Positions 6,114-36,049 of a stretch of 43,684 bases of DNA are shown piece by piece (positions within the stretch are counted from its first letter, which is position 1; the number at the start of each line of letters is the position of its first letter). The stretch is from the IMG/VR virus record IMGVR_UViG_3300043331_001189, positions 1-43,684 of that record; one strand, 5' to 3'. The notes beneath the pieces were generated by a model. It searched no databases, was not told where the DNA came from, and worked only from the letters and a program-made list of their open reading frames with translations. Made by a program: the position numbers and the translations under genes. Source of the stretch: a virus.

Positions 6114-6120
6114 CACGCCG

Positions 6121-6173
6121 GCCCCGAGCGCATCGGGGCTTCGCTCCACCGCACGTCATCCCGACGTGCGGTG
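6121..6173 (+). terminator. Tandem hairpins
   Basis: Two perfect stems in series: GCCCCGA/TCGGGGC (6121-6139, 5-base loop) and CACCGCACGTC/GACGTGCGGTG (6147-6173, 5-base loop). They fill the 75-base gap between genes, and the second ends just before the GGAGGTG ribosome-binding site of the next gene, so it could also affect that gene's translation. Confidence 0.6.
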
Positions 6174-6188
6174 AACCGGAGGTGTCGC

Positions 6189-12854: not shown

Positions 12855-12856
12855 GT

Positions 12857-18246: not shown

Positions 18247-18830
18247 GGCAGGCCCGCCGCCACAACGGTGAAGGGGACGCGCTCGCGCACCATATCCGCC
18301 AACCGCTTCTGGCAAGAGGTACGGGCGGCGTCGGCGGCGTCGGCGGCGGCGTAGGCGGCGGCGGCGTCGGCGTCGGCGGCGTAGGCGGCGGCGGCGTCGG
18401 CGGCGGCGTAGGCGGCGTCGGCGGCGGCGGCGTCGGCGGCGGCGTAGGCGGCGGCGGCGGCGGCGTCGGCGGCGTAGGCGGCGTAGGCGGCGTAGGCGGC
18501 GGCGTAGGAGGACTCCCTGGCGAAGCCACACCAGAACTCAGCCGTCGCGGCGGTCTCCGCATCCACCACGCGGGGCAGCTCACGCAACAGGCGCGCCCAT
18601 TCTGGCGAGCCGACCGTCTCCATGGCGTCTGCGCAGAACAGCCGGGCCAGGTCCGCGCTCACCCAGCGGTCCGCGACGCCGAGCGCGCGCAACAGCCAGA
18701 TCATCCAGTCGGCGCGCGGCGCATCCGCCCACGCTTGCTCCGCCGTCCGGTCGCCACACCACTCGCGGGCCTCCCGGCACGCCCCCAGCCTCATCAACAG
18801 TTGCGCAAACGTCGTGCTCAATGCGGTCAT
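18243..18830 (-). CDS. Protein with Ala-Tyr-Ala repeat tail
   Basis: 195 residues. The first 105 form a compact domain (GACREAREWCGD, AWADAPRADWMIWLLRALG) that recalls small proteins annotated as putative immunity proteins in bacteria and phages. Residues 109-169 are a low-complexity tract of AYAAYAA, ADAAAA and similar units, followed by a short basic-hydrophobic end. Tyr falls every 3-10 residues, so the tract may form a long amphipathic helix. It is encoded by a G+C trinucleotide repeat. The overlap of starts and stops on both sides supports expression. Confidence 0.7.
   Translation of the reverse strand: MTALSTTFAQLLMRLGACREAREWCGDRTAEQAWADAPRADWMIWLLRALGVADRWVSADLARLFCADAMETVGSPEWARLLRELPRVVDAETAATAEFWCGFARESSYAAAYAAYAAYAADAAAAAAYAAADAAAADAAYAAADAAAAYAADADAAAAYAAADAADAARTSCQKRLADMVRERVPFTVVAAGLP
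18324..18506 (-). repeat. Imperfect trinucleotide repeat coding the Ala/Tyr/Asp tract
   Basis: About 183 bases built mainly of GCC/GCT-type Ala codons punctuated by TAC (Tyr) and GAC (Asp), read on the plus strand as ggcggcgtc and ggcggcgta units. Length changes in whole codons would keep the frame. Confidence 0.85.
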
Positions 18831-21201: not shown

Positions 21202-21230
21202 GCGGGAGGGCGTCTAGGGCGCCTTCCCGC
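21202..21230. terminator. Bidirectional terminator
   Basis: GCGGGAGGGCG (21202-21212) pairs with CGCCTTCCCGC (21220-21230) with one G-T wobble, between the plus-strand stop at 21188 and the leftward late operon, which ends at 21214 inside the stem. Confidence 0.7.
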
Positions 21231-21540
21231 TCGCCCGGCGCGTTCCGCCGCGGAGTAGGTGGAGGATCTCTTGGAGCGCGGCGGCCTGTGCGCGCTGCGC
21301 TTCCTGGTAGCCCTCAGCGGCCTTCTCGATGCGCTGCACCCGGCCCGGGAGAAGCGCCACCTCCGCCAGTTGCTTCCCGTGCTCCTCCAGCAGTCGGCGG
21401 TGGTCCAACTGCTCCCGGCGGAAGTCCTCCGCCGCCGTGTACCGCGCCCAGGTGTGGCCCACGCACCCGCCGGCCGGCGTGAGGAGGACGCCGACGACGG
21501 CGATCCCCGTCTTCAGGTCTAGTTGGCCCCGGAGGCTCAC
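21214..21540 (-). CDS. Single-pass membrane coiled-coil protein, possible lysis-related
   Basis: 108 residues: a hydrophobic segment at about 11-29 (TGIAVVGVLLTPAGGCVGH), then a helical coiled coil (LLEEHGKQLAEVALLPGRVQ) and a basic tail. The layout resembles phage inner-membrane spanins or Rz-like proteins. It is the last gene of the late operon, a usual position for lysis genes. No recognisable partner endolysin; call tentative. Confidence 0.55.
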   Translation of the reverse strand: MSLRGQLDLKTGIAVVGVLLTPAGGCVGHTWARYTAAEDFRREQLDHRRLLEEHGKQLAEVALLPGRVQRIEKAAEGYQEAQRAQAAALQEILHLLRGGTRRASGKAP

Positions 21541-21803
21541 CGCTTCCGCGCCTCAACGGGCTTGCAGCCGTTGGTGGCCTGGCGCTGGAGCTCGAAGAGA
21601 CAGGCAGCCTTGTCCTTGCCCTCCGCGTAGACGTTGGTGCCGTAGGTGCCACCGTCCGGTCGGCGCCCGTGGTGGCAGGCTGCGCGGCACTTCACCTTGC
21701 CGTCCTTCGGTGGCTCGTACTCGACGCACTTCGAGAGCCCGGGCGAGCGGTCCGTGCATTCGTCGGGCTGCGCGAAAGCGAGCAGGGCGAGGAGCCAGAG
21801 CAT
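21537..21803 (-). CDS. Small secreted Cys-rich protein
   Basis: 88 residues. The signal peptide MLWLLALLAFAQPDEC may end in AFA-Q; the mature part has six Cys that could form disulfides. The ATG at 21803 is preferred; an in-frame GTG lies two codons earlier and would overlap the previous stop. ATGA overlap with the last gene. Function unknown. Confidence 0.6.
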   Translation of the reverse strand: MLWLLALLAFAQPDECTDRSPGLSKCVEYEPPKDGKVKCRAACHHGRRPDGGTYGTNVYAEGKDKAACLFELQRQATNGCKPVEARKR

Positions 21804-21805
21804 GG

Positions 21806-22147
21806 TCACTCCGTCGGCGCGTTGGCGACGGCGTCGGACGTGCAGAGTGCCACCAGGGCCGTCGCGCACCCGCCAATGGTGCCGTTGGACAGGTAGCCGC
21901 CGCCCACGGGGAGCCACAGACCCTTCGCCCCACCGCCGTCCGCGAAGGCGCCGCGGCACCTCCCCCGGCAGAGCCAGCTGGAGCCCTCGCGCTCGAACTC
22001 CAGGCGCGTCAGGAAGGTCCGGGCGTCGACGTAGGCCGGGGGCGTCGCGTCGGCCCGGGCGGGCGGCCCGGGCAACACCACCACCGCGGCCACCGCCAGG
22101 CCCAGCGCCGTCATCGCCCCAACGGCCATCTTCTCGTGCGTCTTCAT
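21806..22147 (-). CDS. Secreted small protein
   Basis: 113 residues. Basic start (MKTHEKM), hydrophobic core (GAMTALGLAVAAVVVL) and ARA-D form a good Sec signal. The mature part has four Cys and many Gly (GGGAKGLWLPVGGGYL). No family recognised. It belongs to a run of exported proteins at the end of the late operon. Confidence 0.65.
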   Translation of the reverse strand: MKTHEKMAVGAMTALGLAVAAVVVLPGPPARADATPPAYVDARTFLTRLEFEREGSSWLCRGRCRGAFADGGGAKGLWLPVGGGYLSNGTIGGCATALVALCTSDAVANAPTE

Positions 22148-22154
22148 TCGCCCC

Positions 22155-23036
22155 TCACTGCGCCCCGAAGGCGCACCACATGAACGACCAGTTGCCGACC
22201 ACGTTCCCGGCCGGACACGTCAGCGTGAAGCTGCCAGCGCCAACGGCGGAGACGTACCAGCCGGCGCAGTCCACGGCGCTGGAGGACAGCGGCGTCACCT
22301 GGACATTGCTGGTGGCCGCCACCGTGGAGTTGGTGATCACCACCGACGCGGCCCCGGCCGCCACCGCGCTCCGGCCACAGGGCTTGTCGATGGTGGCGGC
22401 CCCGGGCGACCCTGTGGAGTCGGTGGACTGGAACACCAGGTTGCCGGCCCAGGACAGGCACGTGAGCGCCGTGGTGCCGTTGTCCCGCCAGCACCCGAAG
22501 TTGCCGGAGGTGAGGTCGACGGAGCGGTCCCAGGTGTAGCCCGTGGTGCCGTTGGTCGAGTGGTTATTGGTGTCGAAGGCCCCCGTGCCCTCGGAACGGA
22601 TGCCATCCGGGCCGGGCTGCACCTCGCCCGCCGCGGTGAACGTCCCCGCCGTCTGGGTGCCGGAGGCGTTCCCGCGCAGGGTGGCGTTGGCCGCCGGCCA
22701 CTGGATTTCGGTGGCGTTGTTCGCGAAGGTGACACCGTCGCCGCTGGTCATCAGCGGGAAGAGGCCGCCGGTGCTGGTGAGGTTGTTCACCCCGGCGTCA
22801 CCGCGCCCGGAGACGTACCCCAGCGCCGTCACCTCACCCGCGAGCTGCGTCCGCCCGACAACCCCGGCATCCCCGTTGACCGTCAGATCTCCGAGGGTGG
22901 ACGGGCCACTGACGATCAACTGGATGAGCCGGAGCGGGCTGGTTGCGCCGGTGTCGTCCAGGGCGCGCGCCACCCCGCCGACGCACCCGGCGATCACCAG
23001 GCATACCAGCACCTTCTGACGGGTGGCCGGCGTCAT
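22155..23036 (-). CDS. Putative tail-fibre-like lipoprotein
   Basis: 293 residues. MTPATRQKVLVCLVIAGC is a lipoprotein signal with lipobox IAGC. The mature part is rich in Gly, Thr, Asn and Val with repeated short strands (GDLTVNGDAGVVG, GRGDAGVNN), as in fibre shafts. The end (VVITNSTVAATSNVQV, AGSFTLTCPAG, NWSFMW) resembles the beta-rich C-terminal domain of phage tail fibres. A fibre with a lipobox is unusual. Alternatively it is a phage-encoded surface lipoprotein. Confidence 0.6.
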   Translation of the reverse strand: MTPATRQKVLVCLVIAGCVGGVARALDDTGATSPLRLIQLIVSGPSTLGDLTVNGDAGVVGRTQLAGEVTALGYVSGRGDAGVNNLTSTGGLFPLMTSGDGVTFANNATEIQWPAANATLRGNASGTQTAGTFTAAGEVQPGPDGIRSEGTGAFDTNNHSTNGTTGYTWDRSVDLTSGNFGCWRDNGTTALTCLSWAGNLVFQSTDSTGSPGAATIDKPCGRSAVAAGAASVVITNSTVAATSNVQVTPLSSSAVDCAGWYVSAVGAGSFTLTCPAGNVVGNWSFMWCAFGAQ

Positions 23037-23572
23037 GGCGCACAGGTCTCCGTCTGGCAGGCCCGGAGGGAGGTGGTCAGGATGGGCGCGGCGACGGATG
23101 TGCCCACCGCGTTCGCCCGCGCCACCAGGCGGTAGTTGCCCGGCCGAAGCGAGACGTTCTGCACCGTCCCCATGATGGAGGACTTACCGGAGGTGGGCAC
23201 GATGTCCTTCCCGATGACGTAGTACCACCCGGCCGGCGGATTCCCGGACTCGGCGTCGTTGACGTAGACGTAGAACTCCACCGCCCCGGTGCCAGAAAAG
23301 GTGCCGGAGGAGAGCGTGGCCGTGAAGATGTAGGAGCCGACGCCGGAGAGCACGACGCCCTCGTTGGCCGCGGTGGGCGCGTCCCGGGTGCAGACGTTGG
23401 AGGCACAGCGGTAGCCGGCCAGGGTGGTCAGCCCGTTGTTCTTCACCCGCCCGCCGCCCGAGGACGTGCCGCCGTCACCATCCTCGATGACGAAGCGGGT
23501 GACCTGGCCCATGGCCTGGGCCGCCAGAACGGCGCTCACCACCACCGCGATCATCAACAGGCCGCGCTTCAC
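23033..23572 (-). CDS. Secreted beta-rich protein
   Basis: 179 residues with a clear Sec signal (MKRGLLMIAVVVSAVLAAQAMGQ, cleavage likely after AMG or AQA). The mature part is predicted beta sandwich, including TFSGTGAVEFYVYVND and LRPGNYRLVARANAVG, with two Cys pairs. ATGA overlaps on both sides. Could be a virion surface or host-surface protein; no family assigned. Confidence 0.65.
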   Translation of the reverse strand: MKRGLLMIAVVVSAVLAAQAMGQVTRFVIEDGDGGTSSGGGRVKNNGLTTLAGYRCASNVCTRDAPTAANEGVVLSGVGSYIFTATLSSGTFSGTGAVEFYVYVNDAESGNPPAGWYYVIGKDIVPTSGKSSIMGTVQNVSLRPGNYRLVARANAVGTSVAAPILTTSLRACQTETCAP

Positions 23573-24879
23573 TCCTCACCTCCCGCTTCGATGACCGCTC
23601 GCTCCACCGCCGCCGCGTACTCCGGATCGCGCTCCAACAGCGCCTCGTGGAGCGCCAGCCCCGCCCGCGTCCCGCCCGTCTGCAAGGCGCGTTGTAGCAT
23701 GGCCCCGAAGCTGCCGAGAACCGGCCCACCGGCCGCGGACTCGACGAACTCCCATACCATTTTGCGCACACCGGGGCTTCGGACGGCGTTCCGGATGATG
23801 GTGCCCGGCCTGCCCTGGGTGAGCGCCATCACGGTTCCCAGGCCACCGCCAATGGCCGCGCCCTCCGGACCGCCGACAGCCGCCCCGCCGCTGGCCAGCA
23901 TGACGGGGAGGAGTCGGTGCCCCAGCGTCCAGACGCGGGGGGCGATCTCCCGGCGGACCGGGTTGGCCATGGCCGCCTCGGCACCAGCCTCCACCGCGGC
24001 CGGGGCCAACGCCCCGCGCGCCTGGGCGAGCCCCTTCTCGGCGTCCACGAGGCTTCCGCCCAGCCGGTCGGCGCCGCGGTCGAGGACGTTCTCGGCGGCC
24101 CGTTGGCGCACGGCGGCGGCCTTGGGGTCGGCCAGGAACGCCTGCGCCTTGGAGATCTGCGCCGGAGTGTAGTGGCCGGAGGCGTTGGCCACCACTTCCT
24201 CTGCCTCCCTGAGCGCCCGGAGGCCCGCTGCAGCCTCGCCCCCGAGAGAGCTCTCTGCGGACTTCTTGGCGGCATACCTGGAGCCGTACTCGGTGGCGGC
24301 CTGGTCAGCCTCCGCCAGCCGCACGCCCTGCGCAGCCCGCCCGCGGAGTGCGCTCACGGCCTTGGAAACGCCGTGTCCCACCGCGCCAGCGCCAGCTCCA
24401 ACGGCTCCGCCAATAGCGGTGTCGGTGAGCACCTCGCCCACTTCACCTTCAGTCAGGTCCGCCTCGCTGGTGCCGAGGCCCTGGGCCGCCCCGGTGGCCG
24501 CTCCCAGCGCCATGGCGCCCTTCAGGCCCTTGGCGGCAGCTCCGCCCGGGAGGAGGGCGCCGCCCACCGCCCCCACGACTTCCCCGCCGCGGTAGAGCTC
24601 CGGGTTCGCGCCTTCGGCCGCGGCGTATTTCCGACGCGCCTCGTCGCGGTTGCCCGAGTAGTCGAAGTCCCCGCCGGAGAGCAGGTCGGCCAGCCCGCCC
24701 GCCACCCCTTCCATCTCGTCGGCGAAGCCCAGGGAGACCCCTTGGAGACCTCCCCACAGCGCCGACTCGCCGCCGGACATCACCGGCTTGGCGCGACTCC
24801 GCCAACCGGCGGTGTCCGCTGGCGCCGACTGGTTCCCGGAGCCGGGTTCGACCGGACTCGCTCGCTCGCGCCAGCTCAT
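23569..24879 (-). CDS. Putative internal virion (DNA ejection) protein
   Basis: 436 residues starting MSWRERASPVEPGSG, with four-base overlaps on both sides. Gly/Ala-rich stretches (GGEVVGAVGGALLPGG, AIGGAVGAGAGAVGHG) alternate with long helices; near the end are further hydrophobic Gly-rich parts. Such composition is common in podovirus ejection proteins that leave the capsid to cross the envelope. Its neighbours upstream are two similar proteins, giving a three-gene set as in T7 and P22. No direct family match. Confidence 0.55.
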   Translation of the reverse strand: MSWRERASPVEPGSGNQSAPADTAGWRSRAKPVMSGGESALWGGLQGVSLGFADEMEGVAGGLADLLSGGDFDYSGNRDEARRKYAAAEGANPELYRGGEVVGAVGGALLPGGAAAKGLKGAMALGAATGAAQGLGTSEADLTEGEVGEVLTDTAIGGAVGAGAGAVGHGVSKAVSALRGRAAQGVRLAEADQAATEYGSRYAAKKSAESSLGGEAAAGLRALREAEEVVANASGHYTPAQISKAQAFLADPKAAAVRQRAAENVLDRGADRLGGSLVDAEKGLAQARGALAPAAVEAGAEAAMANPVRREIAPRVWTLGHRLLPVMLASGGAAVGGPEGAAIGGGLGTVMALTQGRPGTIIRNAVRSPGVRKMVWEFVESAAGGPVLGSFGAMLQRALQTGGTRAGLALHEALLERDPEYAAAVERAVIEAGGEE

Positions 24880-26723
24880 TGGACAGGCCGGAATCCTTCC
24901 TTGGCGGCGTCCTTCAGGTCGGCGGCGTCGATCTCGAACGTCTCGGTGCCGTTGGTGACACGGATCTTCGCGGGGGCGGTGGCGCTGGTCGGCGCGCCCG
25001 TCGCGCCGGGCGCCCACCCCCCCGCCTCTTGGATGGTTTCCCACGTCCGGCCCGGGTACTTGGCGCGTAGGTTGCGCTCGGCGCGACGCATCACATCCAC
25101 CGCGGTTTTGGTGGCGATCTGGACCTGTTGCTCCGACGCCCCAGGCTGTGTCCCCGTCTCGATGGCGGCGCGCTCCGCCTCTGAGGGCGTCACCGCGGCG
25201 CCGCTCCGGGCTCGAAGGATGATGTTCCCGAGCTTCGCGAGATCGGTCCGGAGCTGGATCCCCTCGTCGGAGCCAATCCCCCACGACGCCAGCCGACCGA
25301 CGACGCGCCCGACGCCCGGCAGGTCCCCGCCCTTCAGGGCGCCCTCCAGTCGGTTCAGCGAGTCGGACAACTCCGAGGCGCCCTCCGCGTCCTTGGTGGC
25401 CTTCTCGACGAGGGATTGGTCGAACTTCTCTCGCTGGAGTTCCTGAGCCGGCGTCAACCCCCCGCGCCCCCCACCCTTGGCGCGCACCTTGTCGATCTCC
25501 CCCTGCGCCCGGATGCGCTCCTTCTGGAGGTCCACGTTGGCCTCCAAGAACTTGGCGAGCGGCCCCCGCGACAGGGTGGCGTAACTGGCGCCCGCGAACT
25601 CCGGCCGCTTCGCCATGCCGGGGAGGACGCTGGCCAGGAACTCCCGCGCCATCCGGGACTGCGGGCTGTTGGGGTCGGCGTCCTGGGCCGTGGCCGCCGC
25701 CGCCTTCTTCCGGGCGGCGTCCGCCTGCGTCAATGCCAGATCCGCCAAGGGCCGGTCGGCGTTCTCGTCCAGGGCGTCGTACCCCGGCCCGGTACCGCGG
25801 CCGATCATCGCTCCGCCTGCGCGCGTCAGGCCGGCGATGAAGCGGTTGCGCCGAGATGCCTCCAGGGCCAGCTGGAGGGGGTCGGGGACGGGCGCCGCTG
25901 CCGGGGGCGCGCCGGCGGCCTGGACCTGCTGGGCAAGCTGCAGCGGCGAGGGCTGGGCTGCAGCCGCAACCGTGGCCGCGTTCCCCGGCGACGGAGCCCC
26001 GAGCCCCTGAGCGACCGCGACGTTCGGCACCCGCACGTCCGCTGTCCGACCCACCCCGACGGAAGGCGCCGCCCGGGCTGACGGAGGTGGAGCGGAGGCG
26101 TCCTTGGCCATGGAGACGAGAGCGTTCGCGGCGTCATCCATGGGCGGCGGGGTGCGTGCGACGGTAGCGGGCTGGGGCTGGGGTGCGGCGTCCGCCCCGG
26201 GAATCCCAAGCACCCCAGGGATGCGGCGGACGGCCCCGGCAACGGCGCCACCGATGTCCTCCAGCGACGCGGGGCCATCCCCGTAGCCCGGGACGCCCAT
26301 TGCCGCAGCCAGCTTCGCGCCAGGGCTGTTGGCGAGCCCCTCGCCGGGGTGCGTCAAGCGACGGAGGAAGCCGCCCTGTTCCTTGGCGGCGGCGTCCTGG
26401 AGGTCAGCGGCGAGCGCCTCGCCCGTGGGCGTAGGCGGCGCCAGCGCGCGGAGTCCAGCGGCGTCACCCGCGCGAGTCCGCTCGGCGATGGCGTGCTGCC
26501 TGTCCTCCTCGGCCGCCGCCCGGGCGCCGACCTCCGGGGTCCACTCCTCGGGCGCCTGGCCGCCCGGCCACGTCGCGGGGGTGGTGGTGTGGGTGGCCGT
26601 CGGGAGGGTCCGGCCCGCCGCCGCAAGCGCCCGGCGTAACTCCTCCCGACGCAGTTCCTCCTCGTAGGAGCCGCCCATCCCGCCCCAATCAGCTCCGCCC
26701 GGGTCCACCGTCCCGCCGCCCAT
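24876..26723 (-). CDS. Putative internal virion protein
   Basis: 615 residues from an ATG at 26723 (a GTG one codon earlier is also possible; both overlap the previous stop). Pro/Ala-rich disordered N-terminal half, then helical parts (RNRFIAGLTRAGGAMIG, LVEKATKDAEGASELSDSL). It ends with a small domain (IRVTNGTETFEIDAADL). No enzyme motif is seen. Located in the presumed ejection-protein set. Confidence 0.55.
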   Translation of the reverse strand: MGGGTVDPGGADWGGMGGSYEEELRREELRRALAAAGRTLPTATHTTTPATWPGGQAPEEWTPEVGARAAAEEDRQHAIAERTRAGDAAGLRALAPPTPTGEALAADLQDAAAKEQGGFLRRLTHPGEGLANSPGAKLAAAMGVPGYGDGPASLEDIGGAVAGAVRRIPGVLGIPGADAAPQPQPATVARTPPPMDDAANALVSMAKDASAPPPSARAAPSVGVGRTADVRVPNVAVAQGLGAPSPGNAATVAAAAQPSPLQLAQQVQAAGAPPAAAPVPDPLQLALEASRRNRFIAGLTRAGGAMIGRGTGPGYDALDENADRPLADLALTQADAARKKAAAATAQDADPNSPQSRMAREFLASVLPGMAKRPEFAGASYATLSRGPLAKFLEANVDLQKERIRAQGEIDKVRAKGGGRGGLTPAQELQREKFDQSLVEKATKDAEGASELSDSLNRLEGALKGGDLPGVGRVVGRLASWGIGSDEGIQLRTDLAKLGNIILRARSGAAVTPSEAERAAIETGTQPGASEQQVQIATKTAVDVMRRAERNLRAKYPGRTWETIQEAGGWAPGATGAPTSATAPAKIRVTNGTETFEIDAADLKDAAKEGFRPVQ

Positions 26724-27652
26724 CACTCCTCCCCCGGCTTCTTCTTGGGCTGCTGGAGGCCGTTCATGTACTGCGCGAACGCCCCGAGCCCCTGCCCGGC
26801 CCCCTGGCCGATGTTCCCGAAGGTCTGCTGCGTCTGGGTGGCGTGCCCGCCGGCCACGTTAGCGGCGTTCCCGAGCGCTCCCGCGTAGGCGTTGGCGCCG
26901 GCGAGGCGGTTCTCGTACGCCTGTTGCTGGCCGGCGACACGCCCCGCCTCGTTGAACTCCGCCACCCTGTCCCGAGCGCGGCCGCGCGTCACGCCCTCGT
27001 CGAAGGACTGGCCGCGCATGGTGGTGGACAGTTGGCCGTAATCCTTCATGGCCTGGAGCGCCTGGCGCCGACCCTCCGCCGCCGCGCCGAAGCCGGATGC
27101 CGCAGAGCGGTTGGCCGCGTCCTGCCCGGCCTGCTGCTGGAGCGCGAAGTCCACCCCGGAGCCTCCCATTCCGCGGGCCTGGAGTCGCTGCTGGATGGCG
27201 CCCTGCTGGGCGTTGGCCTGCTGATTGGCAGCGGACTCCGCGTCGTTCATCGCCGCGCGGAACTCCAGGTTGTCCGGCCGGGACATCCGCTGGAGGTCCA
27301 TGGCGGCCTGGCGCTGGAGGGCGACCGACTGCGGATCGGCGTAGACGCTCTCGACGGCTGACGGCCCCAGGTGCGGCGTGAGGGCGGCGAGCTCCGGGGC
27401 CTTCAGGATGTCGGGGCCGTAGAGGGCGAGGGCCTGGTCCATGTACTCTTGGGCCTTCGCGCGGTCCCCGGCGGACAGGGCGTTGCCGATGAGGTTGGCA
27501 ACGATGGGCGCGAGAAAGCCGATGCCTGCGCCAATGGCCGTTCCTATGCCCGGCGCCACAGCAGTCCCGGCGGCGGCGCCCGTGCCTGCTCCCGCCAGGC
27601 TGGCGCTCAGGTCGATGGGGGAGTCCAGCAGTTCGTCCGGATCGTAGGCCAC
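26723..27652 (-). CDS. Putative internal virion protein with Gly-rich hydrophobic segment
   Basis: 309 residues from a GTG at 27652 sharing a base with the previous TAG. Residues about 18-55 are a Gly/Ala hydrophobic run (GAGTGAAAGTAVAPGIG, GAGIGFLAPIVANLIG), then Gln/Ala helices (NQQANAQQGAIQQRLQARG). This pattern is common in podovirus ejection or head-assembly-associated virion proteins. No named family. Confidence 0.6.
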   Translation of the reverse strand: MAYDPDELLDSPIDLSASLAGAGTGAAAGTAVAPGIGTAIGAGIGFLAPIVANLIGNALSAGDRAKAQEYMDQALALYGPDILKAPELAALTPHLGPSAVESVYADPQSVALQRQAAMDLQRMSRPDNLEFRAAMNDAESAANQQANAQQGAIQQRLQARGMGGSGVDFALQQQAGQDAANRSAASGFGAAAEGRRQALQAMKDYGQLSTTMRGQSFDEGVTRGRARDRVAEFNEAGRVAGQQQAYENRLAGANAYAGALGNAANVAGGHATQTQQTFGNIGQGAGQGLGAFAQYMNGLQQPKKKPGEE

Positions 27653-28245
27653 TACTCCAGCCTCCCGCTCGGACTGAACGGCCGGCCGGTGAGCGCCTGG
27701 CCCAGCCACGCGATGAGCACGGAGGGACGTAGCGGGCCGGCGGCGTCCGTGACCTCGACGGACTTCAAGATCGACCCGTCCCGTGGATGCCGGAACCGGA
27801 GCGCGGCCCGGTCAGCAACCCAGCCGTCGTCCCTATCGTAGCGCACGCGGCCGAGCACGAACTCGACTTCAAGATCGAACGGCGGTTCCCGGACCACGGC
27901 GTAACCGTGCTTGCTCAAAAACAGGTCAAGATCGGCGATGTACCCGGGGATCAGGGTGGCCCCATCCATGACCACGGGCTCGAGAGGCGGCGTGTAGGGC
28001 TCCGGAGGCGGCTCGCGGCCGGCTGCTACCTGGCCCGCCCGCGTCAGGCCGGCGATGAGCCGGCGCTCCCCCTCGCGATCAATGATCGTCTCGGCCGCGT
28101 CGGCATGAACCACGAGGCGAACGCGGCCAGGCCCGACAGTCGCGCCAGGACGCTCGTACACATCCGCCCGTGGTCGCAAGATCCGGACAGCGGCGCAGGC
28201 CTGGAGCGCCGACAGCACCACCAGCATTAGGGCCATCCTCAGCAT
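27652..28245 (-). CDS. Putative lipoprotein in virion operon
   Basis: 197 residues. MLRMALMLVVLSALQAC is a lipoprotein signal (lipobox LQAC). The mature part has alpha/beta sequence and a Pro-rich loop (REPPPEPYTPPLEP); the second half resembles a small beta domain (DLEVEFVLGRVRYDRDD). It starts one base before the previous stop ends. Likely anchored in the outer membrane of the infected cell, perhaps for exclusion or lysis; function unproven. Confidence 0.65.
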   Translation of the reverse strand: MLRMALMLVVLSALQACAAVRILRPRADVYERPGATVGPGRVRLVVHADAAETIIDREGERRLIAGLTRAGQVAAGREPPPEPYTPPLEPVVMDGATLIPGYIADLDLFLSKHGYAVVREPPFDLEVEFVLGRVRYDRDDGWVADRAALRFRHPRDGSILKSVEVTDAAGPLRPSVLIAWLGQALTGRPFSPSGRLE

Positions 28246-28995
28246 CTACTGGACCCTCCGGCGCATCCGCTGCTCCAACTCCATGGGTCCACCGCTACCG
28301 ACAGGAGTCCGCCGGCCCGGGGCGCTCATGCCAGGGGTGGAGGCCATAGGCCTGGACCGGTCGTTCACGTTCTCGAACTTCCCTTTGCCCTCCGTGCTGG
28401 AAGACGACGTGGGCGTCGCCGGCGTGTACCCGCCCTCCCAAGTCCCCAGGTAGGAGTCCAGGCCCCCGTACTTCCCCGCCAGCGGCTCCAGGGTGGCGTT
28501 GCCCTCCGCCCGGGTCAGGAAGGTGTCGAAGCCGCGCATGCCGGAGCCGTACCCGCCCCCGGCGCCGTACTGGTTGGTGAGTAGCCCGCCCACGCCCCCG
28601 GCCGTCTGGGTGGCGCGCGCCGACTCCGCCGCCTTGCCCACATCATCGCTCACCTGGCCGTAGAGCTTCGGGTCCATGGCGGAGAGGGTAGCGGCGGGGG
28701 AGAGGTAAGATTTCTGCTGGAGAGCGCTGATGCCCTGCTGCGCCGTCTGGCCCAGCTGGTTGACGTTGGAGGCGAGCTGGTTGGCCATCCCCTGGCCCGC
28801 GCCCTGGTTGGCGGTGAGGTACCTCTCCAAGTTCACGAACCCGGTCCCGCCCCCGCCGCGCTGCGCTGGCGTGCCAGCCTGAACAGTTGGCGCGCCAACG
28901 GAGGTCGGGGCCACGCCCCCGCCGAGACCTGGACCGGGCGCCCCGCGCGGAGCCGCCCCGGGAGTCCTCTCGTTCTCGTCGTCCACGTAGGCCAT
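28246..28995 (-). CDS. Putative virion protein, Gly-rich
   Basis: 249 residues starting MAYVDDENERTPGAAP. A disordered Gly/Pro/Ala N-terminus precedes NLERYLTANQGAGQGMANQL and SNVNQLGQTAQQGISALQQ, a Gln-rich helical pair, then Gly/Tyr-rich sequence and FDTFLTRAEG. The type is often found beside ejection or tail genes. No family name is certain. Confidence 0.55.
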   Translation of the reverse strand: MAYVDDENERTPGAAPRGAPGPGLGGGVAPTSVGAPTVQAGTPAQRGGGGTGFVNLERYLTANQGAGQGMANQLASNVNQLGQTAQQGISALQQKSYLSPAATLSAMDPKLYGQVSDDVGKAAESARATQTAGGVGGLLTNQYGAGGGYGSGMRGFDTFLTRAEGNATLEPLAGKYGGLDSYLGTWEGGYTPATPTSSSSTEGKGKFENVNDRSRPMASTPGMSAPGRRTPVGSGGPMELEQRMRRRVQ

Positions 28996-29012
28996 GGCGC
29001 TCCGACTCTACC

Positions 29013-29465
29013 TCACCCACCCACCGCGAGCCACGTCACGGAGTACTTCAGCCCCGGCGTCAACCCCGCCTGGGCGGTGATGCGCAGCAGCCGCCCGCCG
29101 CGATCCGCCGAGATGACCTCCCGCCAGGCCGGCACCGTCAACCCCCCATCGCCCTCCACGCCCGTCCCCACCGGGTTGCCCTCCGCGCCCGCCGAGTCCA
29201 GCAACTTCGCCCCGAGCGCCACCACCCCGAGACAGGGGCCGGCGACGGTCAACGCGCGCTCCAGCGGCTCCGTGGACGACGGCGGAAGCCCCCGGTACTG
29301 GATGATCTGGACGTTGAGCTGCGCCAGCATGACGCGCCGCATGAACGCCGCCAGCGGGGCCAGCACCCGGTTGACGGGCGTGGCGATGGCCTGCTCCACC
29401 CACGTCCGGTGCTCCGCGGGCACCCGCTCCGTGGTGAGGCGGGCGAATTCGACGGGGGCCGTCAA
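29013..29465 (-). CDS. Small virion-operon protein
   Basis: 150 residues if started at a TTG whose TTGA overlaps the stop of the nozzle-like gene. Helical first half (EHRTWVEQAIATPVNRVLAPLAAFMRRV), then a beta half ending VTWLAVGG, as in fibre- or tail-associated proteins. No ATG or GTG gives a better start. Function unknown. Confidence 0.55.
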   Translation of the reverse strand: MTAPVEFARLTTERVPAEHRTWVEQAIATPVNRVLAPLAAFMRRVMLAQLNVQIIQYRGLPPSSTEPLERALTVAGPCLGVVALGAKLLDSAGAEGNPVGTGVEGDGGLTVPAWREVISADRGGRLLRITAQAGLTPGLKYSVTWLAVGG

Positions 29466-32400
29466 CGGGTGCTCCTCTTGGACTCCACCTCGCCCTCCAG
29501 GTTGAACCCCTGAAGCGCGAAGGTCTCCCGCGCCGTGTCGTGCTCCATCAGCCACCGGATGCGGGCGCCGCGCATCCAGCTCCGCGCCACCCAGAAGTCG
29601 ATTTCCGTCCGGTGCGCTCCCGCCCCGCCCGGAGGCGCCATCAGCGTCGCGTCGCTGTAGGTGGGGGACAGGTCGGTCCACCACTTCAGGTCGACGCTGG
29701 CGAAGCGGCTGTCGTCGAAGTGCAGGCTCCCCAGCTGCCAGAGCTTCTGTGCCCCCGGCTTGCCGCCGTCGATGTCGATGGGCTCCACCTTCGAAGCGAT
29801 GGAGATGTCCCGCGCCTGCACGGTGTTGCCGACGCTGAACCCCGTCGCGCTCTCCAGGGTGATGGTGTTGGTGGCCGCGGCGAAGGACGCGACGGTGCCG
29901 GTGGTCGCCGTCGTGCTGTTGTAGATGCGCGCGCCAGGGAAGAAGTAGCGCTCGGGGTTGGCGGGAGCCGCCGTCCATGTGATGGCGGCGCCGGCCAAGG
30001 TGGCCACGGTGCTGCTCACCAGGCCTGGGTAGACGGGGTCCGTCTGGTCGGCCAGCGTCTCCGCGCGTCGCTCGCTCGCCACGTAGGCCCCGGCACCCAG
30101 ATAGAGCGTGTCCGAGTCCGGCTCCATCAGGCCATGGCGGAAGCCGCCGGTGACGCCGTCCCAGACGTGCGGGCCGGTCCAGTCCCCGGTGTTGGCGTAG
30201 TAGACGTAGGCCAGCACCCCGGACGTGTCCCCGCTGGAGTCCGGGAAGAAGAAGAACACCCGCTGTCGGGTGTTGTCCGCCACCGCGAAGGCGTAGGCGT
30301 TGAGGACGGAGGTGGTGGCCGCCACCTCCAGCGCGCGTAGGTCCGCCTCGATGGGCTTGGAGATGAGGCGCGCTGAGTCCCCCGCTTCCACGACGCCCTG
30401 GTTGGTGAGCGCGTAGATGCCGCGAGGCCCCGCCACCGCCGTCTTTGCGGCCTTCAGGTTCAACTGGAGGTCGTACTCGTCGACGCTCCAGTTGATGCCG
30501 TCGCCCAGGAGGCGGTGCCAGCCGCGATCCGTCATCACCAGGACGTAGTCACGGGTGGCGTGCGCACGCTGGATGGTGCCGATGCCCAAGTCCTTGAACT
30601 GCGTCGGCGGGACCGACCACGGCTCGTCGGGGTCCCCCCACATGAACCCGGCGCTCGCGTCGGACTCGTTCGACTGGAAGAGTCCGGGATCCTGGTCGAA
30701 GAACCATCCGGTGTTGGCCGCGGCGCCGACCGTCACGCCGCTCTCGGTGTAGGTGAACTGCGTGGACGACGGCACGGTTGCGACCGTCTTGAGTCCGTTC
30801 GGAAAGTTGGTGGTGTTCGAGCTGCGGGCCAGTTCGATCTGTTGCCCGACGGCGAAGTAGTGGTCCCCGGCGGTGTTGACGGTGACGGTCGACCCGGAAC
30901 GGGCGATGTTCGACATCAGCACGACGCTGGAGACGCGGGGGGCGAGGGTGTCGCCCACCTGGACGCCGCCGCCCACGATCGTGAAGGCGCAGAACGGGCC
31001 GATGGCTGGCGTGCGCGCGTAGATCCGGATTCGCCCCGGCGCCTCAATGTCGGTGCTGACGTAGGCGGCGTACAACTCGTCGTTGGTGGTCGAGCCGTTG
31101 ATGGCCCGAACGATGGACTTCGCCGTGTCCGCGATGTTCTGAGCCACGCTCCCGGTCGAGTAGACCTTGAACTCGCCGGCCGCGACATCCTCAGTGGATG
31201 CGGCGGCAATGGGCACCGACCACGTCAAGGACGTGAGGTCGTCGGGGTGGTCCGCGAAGATCAACTGGTCCGCGATCTGGAAGCTGAGGGCCGCGCCCGC
31301 GGTCAGCAGCCGCAGTTCGAGAGCGCGGATCCCGGCCACGTTGAACATCAGTACCGCGTCACGGAAGAGAACGGCGTCCCGCGCCTTCGGCGGCCGGTAC
31401 TTCGCGTCGGTCAACTTCCCTAGCGACGTGTACAGCACCGGGGCGCGCAGTTCGTCGTACGCCCTGTCGGTGACGGTCATCGTCCCGGCGGCGATTTCGA
31501 GGTTGGTGGGCGAGCCCTCCCAAACCTGCGCCAGGTTGTCGCTCGGCTCGCTGTTGGCGTCCGCGGACTTCGCGCTGCGGTAGACCTGCACGAAGTCGTC
31601 GACAGTGACGCCAGATGGGATGGGGATGGCGATGTCGGCGTTTCGGGAGGAGAAGCCGTAGGTGATGCTGTTGACGGGGTTGCCGGAGAAGCCGGACGCG
31701 CCGCCGTCGTTGTAGGTGAACGACGTGGCAGAGACGACGGTGACGGAGAAGCGGCCGGCGGCGAAGTTCGTCTCAGCCCCGCCCAGCGTCACGTCCACAT
31801 ACTCGCCCGTGGCGAAACCGTGCGTGGTGTTGATGACGGTGACGACGGCGGTGCCGGAAGTCTTGGAGATGTTCCCGGTGGTGGCGGTGACGTTCGCCGG
31901 GACGGCCAACACGAAGCGGCCGGAGGGCGGGCCAAGCTGGAGGCGCCGGTTGGCGTTGGTGTGGCCCCAGACGATGCGGTACGCCCACTGCCCGTTGGCG
32001 GAGGTGAAGCCGCCGGACTCGTTGGATGTGCGGCGCAGCGTGGCCACGCCCTGAAGCCCTTCCGGCATGCCGGTGAGGCGCCACGTCCCGGTGGGCGTGT
32101 CCAGCTCGTACATGCCGAGCGAGGAGAGGAAAAAGAGGGAGTCCTCCGCTTCGAAGAAGTGCGCTCGGCCACCCACGTCGGGCGGGTCGTACGTGCCGCT
32201 GTACGTGCTCCAGGCGCTCCCGGTCCACCGGGCGATGCTGTTGGTGCCGTAGTGGGCGATGAGGCTGCCCTGGTAGAACTGGAGCGTGTTGATGGTGCCG
32301 CCGAGGCCCTGGGTGAACGACATCCAGTCGAAGCCGCGCCGGGGCTGCAACACGCCGCTGCGCTCCAGCGCGACGTTCTGCGCCTGGTTGAGGCTCCCGG

Positions 32401-32542
32401 TTGGCGCATGCTCATCCGTGGGCGTCCGCCACAGCCCTCTCCACTTGTCGACGCCCGTCATGAACGGCAACCAGTCCGGCTCGTTGTTGCAGCCGGCGAA
32501 GAGGGAGAGGAGGAGAAGGGCGGAGGCGACGCGGTTGGGCAT
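29462..32542 (-). CDS. Tail nozzle-like protein, with N-terminal lipobox
   Basis: 1026 residues. The segment KWRGLWRTPTDEHAP, then SLNQAQNVALERSGVLQPRRG, resembles the start of long podovirus tail nozzle proteins; the rest is beta-rich with Ig-like insertions and an RDYVLVMTDRGWHRL propeller-like region. With the ATG at 32542 the product begins MPNRVASALLLLSLFAGC, a textbook lipobox; third codon positions there are nearly all G/C, supporting translation. An ATG at 32461 overlaps the stop of the preceding lipoprotein gene by four bases, like other joins in the operon, and would omit the signal. Confidence 0.65.
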   Translation of the reverse strand: MPNRVASALLLLSLFAGCNNEPDWLPFMTGVDKWRGLWRTPTDEHAPTGSLNQAQNVALERSGVLQPRRGFDWMSFTQGLGGTINTLQFYQGSLIAHYGTNSIARWTGSAWSTYSGTYDPPDVGGRAHFFEAEDSLFFLSSLGMYELDTPTGTWRLTGMPEGLQGVATLRRTSNESGGFTSANGQWAYRIVWGHTNANRRLQLGPPSGRFVLAVPANVTATTGNISKTSGTAVVTVINTTHGFATGEYVDVTLGGAETNFAAGRFSVTVVSATSFTYNDGGASGFSGNPVNSITYGFSSRNADIAIPIPSGVTVDDFVQVYRSAKSADANSEPSDNLAQVWEGSPTNLEIAAGTMTVTDRAYDELRAPVLYTSLGKLTDAKYRPPKARDAVLFRDAVLMFNVAGIRALELRLLTAGAALSFQIADQLIFADHPDDLTSLTWSVPIAAASTEDVAAGEFKVYSTGSVAQNIADTAKSIVRAINGSTTNDELYAAYVSTDIEAPGRIRIYARTPAIGPFCAFTIVGGGVQVGDTLAPRVSSVVLMSNIARSGSTVTVNTAGDHYFAVGQQIELARSSNTTNFPNGLKTVATVPSSTQFTYTESGVTVGAAANTGWFFDQDPGLFQSNESDASAGFMWGDPDEPWSVPPTQFKDLGIGTIQRAHATRDYVLVMTDRGWHRLLGDGINWSVDEYDLQLNLKAAKTAVAGPRGIYALTNQGVVEAGDSARLISKPIEADLRALEVAATTSVLNAYAFAVADNTRQRVFFFFPDSSGDTSGVLAYVYYANTGDWTGPHVWDGVTGGFRHGLMEPDSDTLYLGAGAYVASERRAETLADQTDPVYPGLVSSTVATLAGAAITWTAAPANPERYFFPGARIYNSTTATTGTVASFAAATNTITLESATGFSVGNTVQARDISIASKVEPIDIDGGKPGAQKLWQLGSLHFDDSRFASVDLKWWTDLSPTYSDATLMAPPGGAGAHRTEIDFWVARSWMRGARIRWLMEHDTARETFALQGFNLEGEVESKRSTR

Positions 32543-32859
32543 GCCCCGTGGTGTACCTCAGGTACCCCGGGGGTGTACACGGACTCGGAGGCCAGCCCCT
32601 GTGTCCCGGAGTCGGATTCGTCGCCGTAGGGGACGGAGCAGTAGACCTCGCAGCCCCCGTTGAAGCAGAGCGGCCGGCGCTGGACCCAATGCTCCTCCTC
32701 GCGGGTGCCGTCCGGGAGGTAGCCCGCGTCCCACTCCCAGACGCCGCACAGTGGGGCCTGGGTGGTGTCAAGGATGTAGGCGCAGTGGTGATCCCAGATG
32801 CACTCCTGGCCGGGGCAGGCAAGGAGGAGGGTGGCGACGAGGGCTGCTGGGACGTTCAT
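32458..32859 (-). CDS. Putative Cys-rich lipoprotein
   Basis: 133 residues. MNVPAALVATLLLAC is a lipoprotein signal (lipobox LLAC), followed by nine Cys in the next 95 residues (CIWDHHC, CFNGGCEVYC). The last 28 codons overlap the nozzle-like gene in another frame, where codon usage is poor, so the functional end may lie earlier or the overlap may be real. It is the first gene of the tail segment after the plus-strand cassette. Confidence 0.55.
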   Translation of the reverse strand: MNVPAALVATLLLACPGQECIWDHHCAYILDTTQAPLCGVWEWDAGYLPDGTREEEHWVQRRPLCFNGGCEVYCSVPYGDESDSGTQGLASESVYTPGVPEVHHGACPTASPPPFSSSPSSPAATTSRTGCRS

Positions 32860-32993
32860 GTTGCGCACTGGTGGCCTCGGGTGTATGGTGCGTACGTTCC
32901 GCTGACGGGCAGGTCGGCGGTGTTCCTCTCCATGTTGCACCGGAGGCCCCGCCGCCGGTTGCCTGCCCGCGACTGGTTGGCGGGGTAGTTTCC
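32860..32993. promoter_or_regulatory. Divergent region between tail segment and plus-strand cassette
   Basis: 134 bases with no gene. A leftward promoter for the tail genes and a rightward one for 32994 should lie here, since a terminator at 33678-33705 lies upstream of the tail segment. I could not place convincing boxes on either strand. Confidence 0.4.
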
Positions 32994-33290
32994 ATGGCGA
33001 AGAAGAAGGCGGCGGCCCCGAAGGTCGCGTTCGAAGTTGGCAAGACGTACCTGCTTCGCGGCGTCACGATGTACCAGATCGGCACAGTGGTGGGCATCAC
33101 GCCGACGGAGCTTCTCCTGTCCCCGGCCGCCTGGGTGGCGGACACGGGGCGGTTCAATGCCGCCCTCAAGTCGGGCGTGCTGGCGGAGGTGGAGCCCTAC
33201 CCCACGGAGACGCTCCCGGCCGGCGTCAACCGCGGCGCACTCTCGGACTGGTGCACCTGGCCGCACGGGGTGCCCACCGAGGTGAAGTGA
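32994..33290 (+). CDS. Small conserved-type phage protein on opposite strand
   Basis: 98 residues: MAKKKAAAPKVAFEVGKTYL, then RGVTMYQIGTVVGI, LSPAAWVADTGRFN and EVEPYPTETLP. I recognise this pattern from small phage proteins of unknown role near structural genes. It is on the plus strand while all flanking genes are minus. The last base of its stop is the first of the next ATG. Confidence 0.75.
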   Translation: MAKKKAAAPKVAFEVGKTYLLRGVTMYQIGTVVGITPTELLLSPAAWVADTGRFNAALKSGVLAEVEPYPTETLPAGVNRGALSDWCTWPHGVPTEVK

Positions 33291-33469
33291 TGGCTGCCGT
33301 CGCAGCCATCCTGCGCGCAGGGTTCGAGTGGTCGGGGTCGGGGTCGCGGTCGTGGTCGGGGTCGCGGTCGTGGTCGGGGTCGCGGTCGTGGTCGCGGTCG
33401 GGGTCGTGGTCGCGGTCGGGGTCGTGGTCGCGGTCGTGGTCGCGGTCGTGGTCGGGAGGTGACTCATGA
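33290..33469 (+). CDS. Ser-[Gly/Arg/Trp] repeat protein, copy 1
   Basis: 59 residues. A short head (MAAVAAILRAGFEW) is followed by alternating Ser and one of Gly, Arg or Trp to the end (SGSGSRSWSGSRSW...). Each Ser-X pair is one hexanucleotide, NGGTCG, with N only G, C or T. The start is coupled to the preceding gene (TGATG) and the stop to the next (ATGA), which supports this frame although all six are open. No family known; possibly a cationic, aromatic membrane- or nucleic-acid-binding peptide. Confidence 0.6.
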   Translation: MAAVAAILRAGFEWSGSGSRSWSGSRSWSGSRSWSRSGSWSRSGSWSRSWSRSWSGGDS

Positions 33470-33654
33470 CGGCAGCCATCCTGCGCGCAGGGTTCGAGTG
33501 GTCGGGGTCGGGGTCGCGGTCGCGGTCGTGGTCGGGGTCGCGGTCGTGGTCGCGGTCGTGGTCGCGGTCGCGGTCGTGGTCGCGGTCGTGGTCGCGGTCG
33601 GGGTCGTGGTCGCGGTCGTGGTCGTGGTCGCGGTCGTGGTCGCGGTCGTGGTCG
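33329..33654 (+). repeat. Hexanucleotide NGGTCG tandem repeat, two arrays
   Basis: Arrays at 33329-33454 and 33499-33654, each over 20 units, where the first base of each hexamer varies among G, C and T but not A. The plus strand has GG or GGGG every few bases, so it may form G-quadruplexes. The head regions between them are duplicated as well. Confidence 0.95.
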
Positions 33655-33663
33655 GGAGGCTGA
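33466..33663 (+). CDS. Ser-[Gly/Arg/Trp] repeat protein, copy 2
   Basis: 65 residues; the ATG overlaps the stop of copy 1 and follows GGAGGTGAC. Head MTAAILRAGFEW is the same as in copy 1, and the Ser-X tail differs in order and length. A 51-base stretch (33472-33522) is identical to 33302-33352, showing recent duplication. Function unknown. Confidence 0.6.
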   Translation: MTAAILRAGFEWSGSGSRSRSWSGSRSWSRSWSRSRSWSRSWSRSGSWSRSWSWSRSWSRSWSGG

Positions 33664-33677: not shown

Positions 33678-33705
33678 GAGCCCGGCGGAAGCGCTCGCCG
33701 GGCTC
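33678..33705. terminator. Strong hairpin between repeat cassette and adaptor gene
   Basis: GAGCCCGGCG (33678-33687) pairs perfectly with CGCCGGGCTC (33696-33705) with an 8-base loop. It follows the plus-strand cassette and overlaps the last codon region of the leftward adaptor gene, so it may stop both transcripts. Confidence 0.7.
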
Positions 33706-34621
33706 ACCAGAACGCCTCGTTGGCCAGATGATCCGGCTCATCCTGGTCCCTATCCGCCAGGCCGCCGTAGAGTTCCTCTTCCAGCGGCCGGAGCTCCGCG
33801 GCCAGCTTCTTCCACAACGAACCCTCTGGCGGCACCAGCGTCATGGCCACCCGATGTGCCAGGACGACGTGCGCCTCTGGGGGCATCTGGAGCACGGGGG
33901 CCTCTTCCGCGAGGCACACGTAGTCGCCCACCACCAGGGCCGAACGGGCGGCGGCAGTCGCGTTGAATTGGATGGCGGACCCAACGATGGCCGCTGGCGT
34001 CGAGTCGTCCACCAGCGAGTCGAACGGCGGCCTGGCCTGGATGATGTCGCAGGGCGTCGACGTGGTGATGCTCAGAGAGGCGGGGGTGACGTTGAGGGTT
34101 AGGGATAGGATGGTGGGATTCACCGCGTCCTGAATGACGGTGATGACTCCTGCCGTCGCGGGCGCCACCAGTTTGTTCGGCCGCCGCGGGTAGGTGAGGC
34201 GGTACGAGTACGAGGCGGAGTCCGGCGTCGGGTAGAACACCAGCGAGTTGTTCCGCCAGAGGTAGGCCTTCGGGATGCCGCGCGTGGTGGGGTTGAGCCC
34301 CGCCAAATCCGTCTCGACCCACTTCTCCAGGTGTCCGACTGCCCCGTCCGGCGCCACCAGTTGCACCAGGGCGATGGAGCCGTGGAGCGCCCGTGTCACC
34401 ACTCGGTACGAGGCGGTGCCCGCGGTGAAGGCGGTGTCCTTCTGAGTGTTGAAAAAGCCGGACTTTTTCGCGCGGATGCGCTTGGCGATGGTGAGCGCCT
34501 CGGAGTTGGCGAGGCGCAGGAGGTCTGCGTCCTGCCAGCCCGGGGCGTAGGCGGACGACGCGGGCGCCAGGGCGCGCGCGCGGATTTCGGCCGCCAGATC
34601 CGCCGAGTCGTACCGCGCCAG
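33704..34621 (-). CDS. Head-tail adaptor-like protein, probable non-standard start
   Basis: The frame is open and codes plausibly from LARYDSADLAAEIRARALA through WQDADLLRLANSEALTIAKR and TAGTASYRVVTRALHG; this is the pattern of podovirus adaptors. No ATG, GTG or TTG occurs before the GTG at 34402, which would remove 73 codons of this region. A CTG at 34621, seven bases after the previous stop region and behind AAGGCGGG, is the best start and gives 305 residues. The end is acidic. Alternative: start at 34402 with 232 residues. Confidence 0.65.
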   Translation of the reverse strand: MARYDSADLAAEIRARALAPASSAYAPGWQDADLLRLANSEALTIAKRIRAKKSGFFNTQKDTAFTAGTASYRVVTRALHGSIALVQLVAPDGAVGHLEKWVETDLAGLNPTTRGIPKAYLWRNNSLVFYPTPDSASYSYRLTYPRRPNKLVAPATAGVITVIQDAVNPTILSLTLNVTPASLSITTSTPCDIIQARPPFDSLVDDSTPAAIVGSAIQFNATAAARSALVVGDYVCLAEEAPVLQMPPEAHVVLAHRVAMTLVPPEGSLWKKLAAELRPLEEELYGGLADRDQDEPDHLANEAFW

Positions 34622-34831: not shown

Positions 34832-36049
34832 CTACAGCGTGAGGGTCAGGGTCGTGTCGTTGCTCCCGCCCGTCAGGTTGGCGCCGCCGCCCACGGGGGT
34901 TGCGGTGCCTCCGGCGATGACGGAGACGGTGGGGAGAGCGCCGTTCACCAGCCTGGCCCCGGTGGCCGTGTAGCCGGTGCCGGTGACCGAGACGGTGATC
35001 GCGTTCCCAAGGTGCCCGCCGCGCACCGCCGTCAGGGTGACGGTCCCGCCCGAAGACGTGGCGGTGACGTGGCCGCGCACCAGGGCGTCGGTGCTGGCGT
35101 TGATGGCCGTCACGATGCTCGCCGCGGTGGTGGTGTCGTTGCCGTTGGTGCCGGTGGCATTGACGGTCACGCCGTTGATGACGGTGGCGTACGTGCCTCC
35201 GTCTGCCCCAGAGACGACGGTGGTCTGCGCCGCCTGCGCGCCCTCGTACTGCGCGAGCGTGCCGCCGGTCAGCCGCGCGCCCGAAACGGCCAGGTCGGTG
35301 CCGTCCGTCGTCGTCAGGGTGATGGCGTTGCCGGCGATGCCGCCGTACTTGGCGAAGATGTGGACCACCGCACCGCGCGCCAGCGCCCGGACGTGCTTGG
35401 AGACAATGGCCGTCGTGGAGCCGTTGATGGCCGCCGCCAGGTTCGTCGCCGTGGCCGCGTCGGTGGCGCCCACCACGAATTGGTTGTTGGCCGCCGTCGT
35501 GGCGTGCGCAGTGATGGCCTGGCCGTTGATGGCAATCGCGTCGGCGGCGTCGACGCTCGCGCACGTCGCCGTGCCAGTGGCCACCACCCCCAGGTTCTCG
35601 ATGGTGACGCCGTTGGAGCCGGCGCCGGGCTGGGAAGCGGTGACGGTGACCACGGCCAGGGCGCTGGTGGCCGTCACCACCCCGGAGATGCCAGCCGTGG
35701 TGCTGGCGTTGATGGCAGCGGCGAGCGCCGCGGCATCCAGTGTGTCCGTGCCCCCGGAGATGTCGAACTCGTTGTTGCCGGTGGTGGCCGCAGAGCCCTT
35801 GGCGGTGAAGGGCACGCCGTTGATGAGCAGGACGGTGCCTGCCGCCATCGACGCGAGGGTGATGGTGGCGGACCCGGCCTCGGCGGAGTCCCGCACGGTG
35901 ACGGTGCGGATGGTGTGGGCGCCGTTGAGCCCGCCCTCCAGGTGATCGATGAGGGCGCGCAGGTTGTTCGGGGCTCCGGCGTCGGAGTCGAACGAGAGGT
36001 CACCAGCATTGAGGCTGGCGACCGTGACGGTGGTGTTCTTCGAGGCCAT
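34832..36049 (-). CDS. Capsid decoration-like protein with three repeated domains
   Basis: 405 residues, no signal. Three related domains of about 100 residues (near 48-150, 151-265 and 270-385) share an ING strand, a helix AAAINAST or AAAINGST or VTAINAST, and a VTATS/VTVTA strand ending GSNGVTI, AGNAITL or LGNAITV. This pattern occurs in phage tail and head-decoration proteins. Being next to the capsid gene favours decoration or a head fibre. Very Thr/Ala/Val-rich. Confidence 0.65.
   Translation of the reverse strand: MASKNTTVTVASLNAGDLSFDSDAGAPNNLRALIDHLEGGLNGAHTIRTVTVRDSAEAGSATITLASMAAGTVLLINGVPFTAKGSAATTGNNEFDISGGTDTLDAAALAAAINASTTAGISGVVTATSALAVVTVTASQPGAGSNGVTIENLGVVATGTATCASVDAADAIAINGQAITAHATTAANNQFVVGATDAATATNLAAAINGSTTAIVSKHVRALARGAVVHIFAKYGGIAGNAITLTTTDGTDLAVSGARLTGGTLAQYEGAQAAQTTVVSGADGGTYATVINGVTVNATGTNGNDTTTAASIVTAINASTDALVRGHVTATSSGGTVTLTAVRGGHLGNAITVSVTGTGYTATGARLVNGALPTVSVIAGGTATPVGGGANLTGGSNDTTLTLTL

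Follow-up and report, generated by a model that had tools for sequence, protein, structure and literature searches.

Predicted exported, cysteine-rich proteins in the late operon of a podovirus and a possible export signal on its tail nozzle

Introduction

The Llp protein of phage T5 is a superinfection-exclusion lipoprotein, and the llp gene lies adjacent to and downstream of the gene for the receptor-binding protein pb5 (PMC9586334). A further exclusion lipoprotein is Rtp45 (PMC12685063), and Llp, Cor of T1-like phages, and Rtp45 are alike in being small phage lipoproteins with a disulfide (PMC9586334, PMC12685063). Ltp of the Streptococcus phage TP-J34 is a host-surface phage lipoprotein that blocks DNA entry and has the tape measure protein as its target, according to the title of a reference cited in PMC3952083. 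The Bacillus phage Izhevsk has 13 ORFs with predicted lipoprotein signals, which the passage describing them does not present as clustered in the tail operon (PMC7685451). In P2-like phages the lysB/lysC overlap runs into the tail gene R, and a lipoprotein start is embedded in another frame of the upstream gene (PMC3091744).

Ltp, a Gram-positive phage protein, is expressed from the lysogeny module, whereas the lipoproteins predicted in the locus described here are encoded in a late operon. One gene of this locus, termed gene A, encodes a small, cysteine-rich predicted lipoprotein that may be compared with Llp, Cor, and Rtp45, but it has seven cysteines and is located before the tail nozzle gene. 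LysC of P2-like phages ends at its own stop, whereas in the present locus the embedded signal continues in frame into the nozzle, and gene A itself is a predicted lipoprotein. The nozzle has the same predicted fold over its whole length as the podovirus nozzles T7 gp12, P22 gp10, SU10, and GP4, from which this phage differs by a lipoprotein-type extension that is in frame and precedes the ordinary start. The general kind of protein is known from T5 Llp, Cor, Rtp45, and many-lipoprotein phages, but such proteins are unusually dense here and are conserved in a relative, and it is unusual for a tail nozzle gene to allow a reading with an export signal.

Results and Discussion

The window phage and its relative

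The window, which is the whole stretch of DNA analyzed, corresponds to the IMG/VR virus record IMGVR_UViG_3300043331_001189 (43,684 bases, 70.8% G+C). It belongs to a soil-type phage, a podovirus, with its late operon on the minus strand. A megablast search of positions 20001-43684 against 50,697 phage records gave zero matches, and the only record in that collection matched by the terminase, portal, and nozzle was a Silvanigrella phage, with 24-25% identity. Genome scans for host assignment detected no relative. A close relative was found among viral contigs (IMGVR_UViG_3300033690_000035, hereafter G001), which has the same gene order, is 64% identical in the portal, 69% in the major capsid protein, and 61% in the terminase, and has orthologs for nearly the whole late operon. 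The comparison rests on this one close relative in the collections searched. G001 (L010-L012) is a permuted contig, and its ends are located within the late operon, close to the orthologs of 29013-29465 and 28246-28995. The features of the window considered below are as follows, with genes named by their start positions.

32458-32868, minus strand: gene A, predicted small cysteine-rich lipoprotein between the adaptor-like gene and the nozzle gene (PS00013, aligned cysteines, BLASTP)
32462-32542, minus strand: N-terminal extension of the nozzle with the lipoprotein-type signal MPNRVASALLLLSLFAGC (codon LOD, ribosome-site energy, extension in the relative)
29462-32461, minus strand: tail nozzle body with the predicted T7 gp12/P22 gp10 fold (AlphaFold model, Foldseek and VIA-align matches, homolog starts)
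27652-28245, minus strand: predicted lipoprotein gene, an insertion with a virion-type gene on either side (PS00013 match, GGAGGG ribosome site)
23033-23572, minus strand: predicted Sec-secreted protein that contains two pairs of conserved cysteines and is encoded after the ejection-type genes, at the operon end (57% identical ortholog, L012:628-1182)
22155-23036, minus strand: predicted Sec-secreted, tail-fiber-like, cysteine-containing protein (ortholog with the type I signal AWG|LD)
21806-22147, minus strand: predicted small Sec-secreted protein (ortholog L011:15249-15608, 4/4 cysteines conserved)
21537-21803, minus strand: small cysteine-rich protein with a short Sec-like N terminus (ortholog L011:14738-15010, 3/6 cysteines conserved)
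21214-21540, minus strand: protein with an N-terminal membrane segment and a charged, helical-looking tail (ortholog of similar anatomy; spanin-like by anatomy only)

Concentration of export signals and cysteines

The PS00013-type lipobox rule for bacterial lipoproteins as Lgt/LspA substrates requires lysine or arginine in the n-region and a cysteine at positions 15-35. Signals were called using this rule and a home-made scanner with lipoprotein and Sec heuristics. The scanner finds 21803 only if a start upstream is used, misplaces two cleavage sites, and missed the G001 nozzle extension, the 21803 protein of each phage from its own start, and window 32859 from its ATG. Among off-frame starts inside ten virion genes, the lipoprotein heuristic flagged 0 of 496, the Sec heuristic 15 of 496, and the bare PS00013 rule 7 of 447. 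Seven of the 12 genes called in 21214-32542 were signal-like, as compared to one of the 52 in the rest of the window (Fisher, p 9e-6), and to 16 of the 507 genes on the plus strand of 38 other loci (Fisher, p 9e-8). When two genes flagged only from an alternative start were left out, the enrichment was still significant (5/12; p 6e-4 within the window and 4e-5 against the other loci). The 38 other loci, which contain nozzle homologs, had neither a cluster of signal genes nor a nozzle extension. The scanner flagged 0 of 11 genes in L005 of G001, probably because gene A overlaps its neighbor too far for calling.

The distribution of cysteines is an independent mark, which agrees with the signal enrichment. 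In the window, the predicted exported mature parts contain 27 cysteines in 673 residues, versus 17 in 5407 residues of 12 virion-type proteins, and in G001 there are 37 in 757 residues versus 13 in 3282 residues of seven virion-type proteins; the product of 28245, with no cysteine in 180 residues, was excluded from the exported set in this count.

Gene A

In both phages gene A is located between the adaptor-like gene and the nozzle gene, with an RTGA junction. A lipobox had been proposed in the first-pass annotation for its product read from ATG 32859; it is better read from GTG 32868, because the ATG start lacks a lysine or arginine, while the GTG start provides a complete PS00013 match. The seven cysteines of gene A, including that of the lipobox, align with those of L005:9660-10055 in G001 (BLASTP E 0.001). 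Hence, as judged from its sequence, gene A is a cysteine-rich lipoprotein in both phages. It may resemble myxobacterial cysteine-rich lipoproteins. The last ~28 codons of gene A overlap the nozzle extension, and the codon usage there is off-frame for gene A.

The region from the adaptor-like gene to gene A in the window contains a long imperfect tandem array of 12-, 18-, and 30-base units of the GTGGTCGCGGTC type (33328-33656), in place of which the adaptor and gene A of G001 overlap as ATGA. Between the same two genes, on the plus strand and opposite to the late operon, there is also a 98-codon ORF with gene-like codon usage (32994-33290).

The tail nozzle

A family search with the product of 29462-32542 matched no family. 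A 24-row alignment led to a confident AlphaFold model (pLDDT 84.2), which in Foldseek and VIA-align comparisons matched solved nozzles, including those of T7, SU10, P22, and GP4, along the chain. In VIA-align the Z value was 27.8 for the Pa223 tail protein (rmsd 3.0, 447 aligned), 25.9 for SU10, 22.2 for P22, and 20.4 for T7, with unrelated propellers appearing from about Z 18. As judged from the model, the product of this gene is a podovirus tail nozzle, because it matches solved podovirus nozzles along its length. The gene order and the tight junction also agree with this assignment, as homologs of the adaptor-like gene (33704-34402) precede the nozzle. The nozzle gene of G001 contains an in-frame TAA (L005, about 10940-10942), which could be an error, a sign of a pseudogene, or a site of recoding.

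Two possible starts of the nozzle

The ordinary start of the nozzle, ATG 32461, is located 27 codons downstream of the long start at 32542 and overlaps the stop of gene A as ATGA. In the window and G001 this start occupies the same residue, eight positions ahead of GLW, and forms the junction ATGA or GTGA, although the codons differ; its position also corresponds to the starts of homologs in distant phages. Among the 35 other loci in which the nozzle start is readable, 34 have an upstream gene that ends at -20 to +16 nt relative to it. The internal start, coupled to gene A, probably serves for the virion nozzle; translation would restart at the junction, and the nozzle would be made in the cytoplasm.

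The lipobox assigned to 32542 in the first-pass annotation is thus located in an N-terminal extension of the nozzle. In the window it is a complete PS00013 match, while the corresponding 48-codon extension in G001 is signal-like and ends in SPAC, but has proline at -2 and a net charge of about zero, is detected neither by the lipoprotein scan nor by PS00013, and contains no canonical lipobox. Codon usage in the 27 codons that precede M28 is that of the nozzle frame, with 0.54 bits per codon (LOD) and GC3 of 26/27. This score was reached by 0 of 2518 off-frame codon windows and was mid-range among the true ones (655/1259 at or below), and the gene A frame across the overlap scored below every true codon window; these codon windows are not independent, because they overlap. 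The G001 extension had a weaker score, reached by 2 of 1800 off-frame codon windows, with 14 of 900 true ones at or below. The ribosome-site energies were -6.9 (window) and -7.2 kcal/mol (G001) at the long starts, as compared to -4.7 and -3.0 kcal/mol at the ordinary starts; this evidence for the long start is modest, because random sites have a median of -3.4 and a tenth percentile of -7.3. Together, codon usage and ribosome-site energy favor the long start, which counts against the ordinary start as the main one.

One explanation of the lipobox at 32542 is that it is an accident of overlapping frames, with the Ser/Pro-rich tail of gene A reading as hydrophobic in the nozzle frame and the internal start alone being used. 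Such an accident is conceivable, because Ser/Pro codons in one frame are Leu codons in another, and it would fit the non-canonical sequence in G001 as well as the fact that, apart from the window and G001, 0 of 35 nozzles whose start is readable were flagged as signal-bearing (3 of the 39 loci stop short of the start). On the other hand, the codon usage in the overlap follows the nozzle frame and not the gene A frame in both phages, and a comparable 27-codon off-frame stretch was not seen in the 2518 codon windows, which leaves this explanation tenable but somewhat doubtful. It is also conceivable that both starts are used, the internal one for the virion nozzle and the upstream one for a lipid-anchored envelope nozzle, for example a decoy blocking incoming phage. 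The coding-like extensions, the ribosome-site energies, the full lipobox in the window with its signal-like counterpart in G001, and the retention of the RTGA start in both phages are in line with the use of two starts. We consider it unlikely, given the features of the G001 extension that depart from a lipoprotein signal, its low position among true codon windows, the nearly cysteine-free nozzle body (one cysteine in 999 residues), which differs in this respect from most other exported proteins, and the lack of any known function of an exported nozzle. That one nozzle gene serves two destinations, providing a cytoplasmic virion part and a lipid-anchored envelope form that is perhaps a decoy against superinfecting particles, appears quite unlikely.

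The sequence favors translation of the long start in the window, and since the upstream in-frame start adds a lipoprotein-type signal, a minor exported, possibly lipidated, form of the nozzle may be made. The nozzle is the sole real candidate for the earlier suggestion that virion parts are exported and lipidated; its coding-like extension supports this suggestion, while the conserved ordinary start, which would yield an unexported nozzle, and the non-canonical extension of G001 speak against it. If an exported form exists, a virion part would have a second job in the envelope. In the accessible part of the literature, chiefly outside subscription journals, no lipidated or signal-bearing podovirus nozzle was reported.

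Two other readings of the overlap were considered. A programmed frameshift from gene A into the nozzle was rejected, because the nozzle frame is open for only five codons (window) or three codons (G001) above the long ATG, and no slippery heptamer common to both phages was found by eye. An Rz/Rz1-type spanin arrangement, in which a lipoprotein gene with its own stop lies embedded in the gene for an inner-membrane coiled-coil protein, does not fit either, as the embedded frame meets no stop ahead of the nozzle and a lipoprotein signal is found at the beginning of gene A itself.

Predicted secreted proteins at the operon end

The Sec signals proposed in the first-pass annotation for 23572, 22147, and 21803 were borne out by the comparison with G001, where the ortholog of each keeps a signal and a recognizable mature protein. 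The 23572 gene has a GTG start with a strong ribosome site. Its product is identical to the ortholog at 7 of 20 signal positions and at 94 of 157 positions of the mature part, with 4/4 cysteines conserved, and its structure model is poor (pLDDT 45). The corresponding identities of 22147 are 9/31 and 28/78. In both proteins the signal has drifted between the phages, while residues just past the cleavage point are held in common, which are QVTRF in 23572 and D..PPA.VD in 22147. In 21803 the short signal is more conserved (7/12) than the remainder (22/67).

The lipobox claimed earlier for 23036 was not upheld, because Lys8 violates the strict PS00013 rule and the G001 ortholog has valine opposite to Cys18, together with a type I site, AWG|LD. 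Hence, 23036 is predicted to carry a Sec signal in both phages, with a lipobox that is not conserved. Its C-terminal domain is 42% identical to a protein of an uncultured huge phage (E 0.03), and a Pfam match to K1-lyase_C (E 0.013) was below the cut-off. The 21540 product has no PS00013 lipobox and no family match above cut-off. None of the predicted exported proteins matches a named family above its cut-off, and PADLOC gave no match for seven proteins.

A predicted lipoprotein gene private to the window phage

The 28245 gene has a complete PS00013 match (LQAC) and the ribosome site GGAGGG. It is missing at that place in G001, where the orthologs of the flanking genes touch, and no relatives were found in PHROGs, Pfam, NCBIfam, PDB, plasmids, or viral contigs. 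The lipobox recorded for it in the first-pass annotation is therefore a sound predicted signal of a lipoprotein that appears private to the window phage.

Possible roles of the predicted exported proteins

Gene A and the run of four Sec-signal proteins at the operon end are all retained in the syntenic G001, and their signals are kept although the signal sequence drifts. Judged by the comparison with G001, the export set is real, while its job can be proposed only by analogy. In our view it is fairly probable that the late operon carries a set of envelope-bound proteins, serving in superinfection exclusion, receptor masking, or lysis, with the virion nozzle made from the internal start. The earlier proposal of an envelope-protein set inside the tail operon is well supported for 32859/32868, 23572, 23036, 22147, and 21803, which have conserved signals and cysteine-rich mature parts, and 28245 likely belongs to this set too. 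Late in infection, the exported proteins would go to the periplasm, the outer membrane, or the cell surface, where they could change or mask the receptor and thereby keep sister virions from re-adsorbing, as with T5 Llp and Rtp45. The fiber-like 23036 protein could itself cover the receptor. Alternatively, the exported proteins could help to break the envelope at lysis.

A narrower form of the latter role is that 22147, 21803, and 21540 are a holin/spanin-like lysis cassette and not exclusion proteins. Lysis-type genes are located at the operon end in T7, as these genes are here, and 21540 has a membrane segment with a helical-looking tail. However, there was no match to a lysis family, and the mature parts of 22147 and 21803 are cysteine-rich and soluble-looking, which makes a dedicated cassette somewhat unlikely. 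Some signal-bearing genes, chiefly 23572 and 23036, could also encode virion fibers that travel by way of the periplasm and are added to the particle when the cell lyses or later. These two genes occupy the place of the fiber gene in the T7 gene order, 23036 has a fiber-like C-terminal domain (by a weak match), and no other clear fiber gene was recognized. This route is improbable, because exported disulfide-type proteins would need to meet particles assembled in the cytoplasm, the literature searched offers no precedent, and 34832-36049 or other genes could encode the fiber.

We therefore prefer the envelope-bound set as the explanation. A conserved block of envelope-bound, cysteine-rich proteins in a podovirus tail operon would point to an uncharacterized late program at the host surface, and export signals in phage genes are easily overlooked in annotation.

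Other features of the window

A tandem repeat of the GGCGGCGTC type is present at 18324-18508. On the plus strand, 5931-6866 encodes a small membrane protein and, after it, a protein that may carry a Sec signal and gave no Pfam match; the two could be lysis genes. The 11964-12860 region encodes a DUF5131 protein (Pfam E 1.3e-39).
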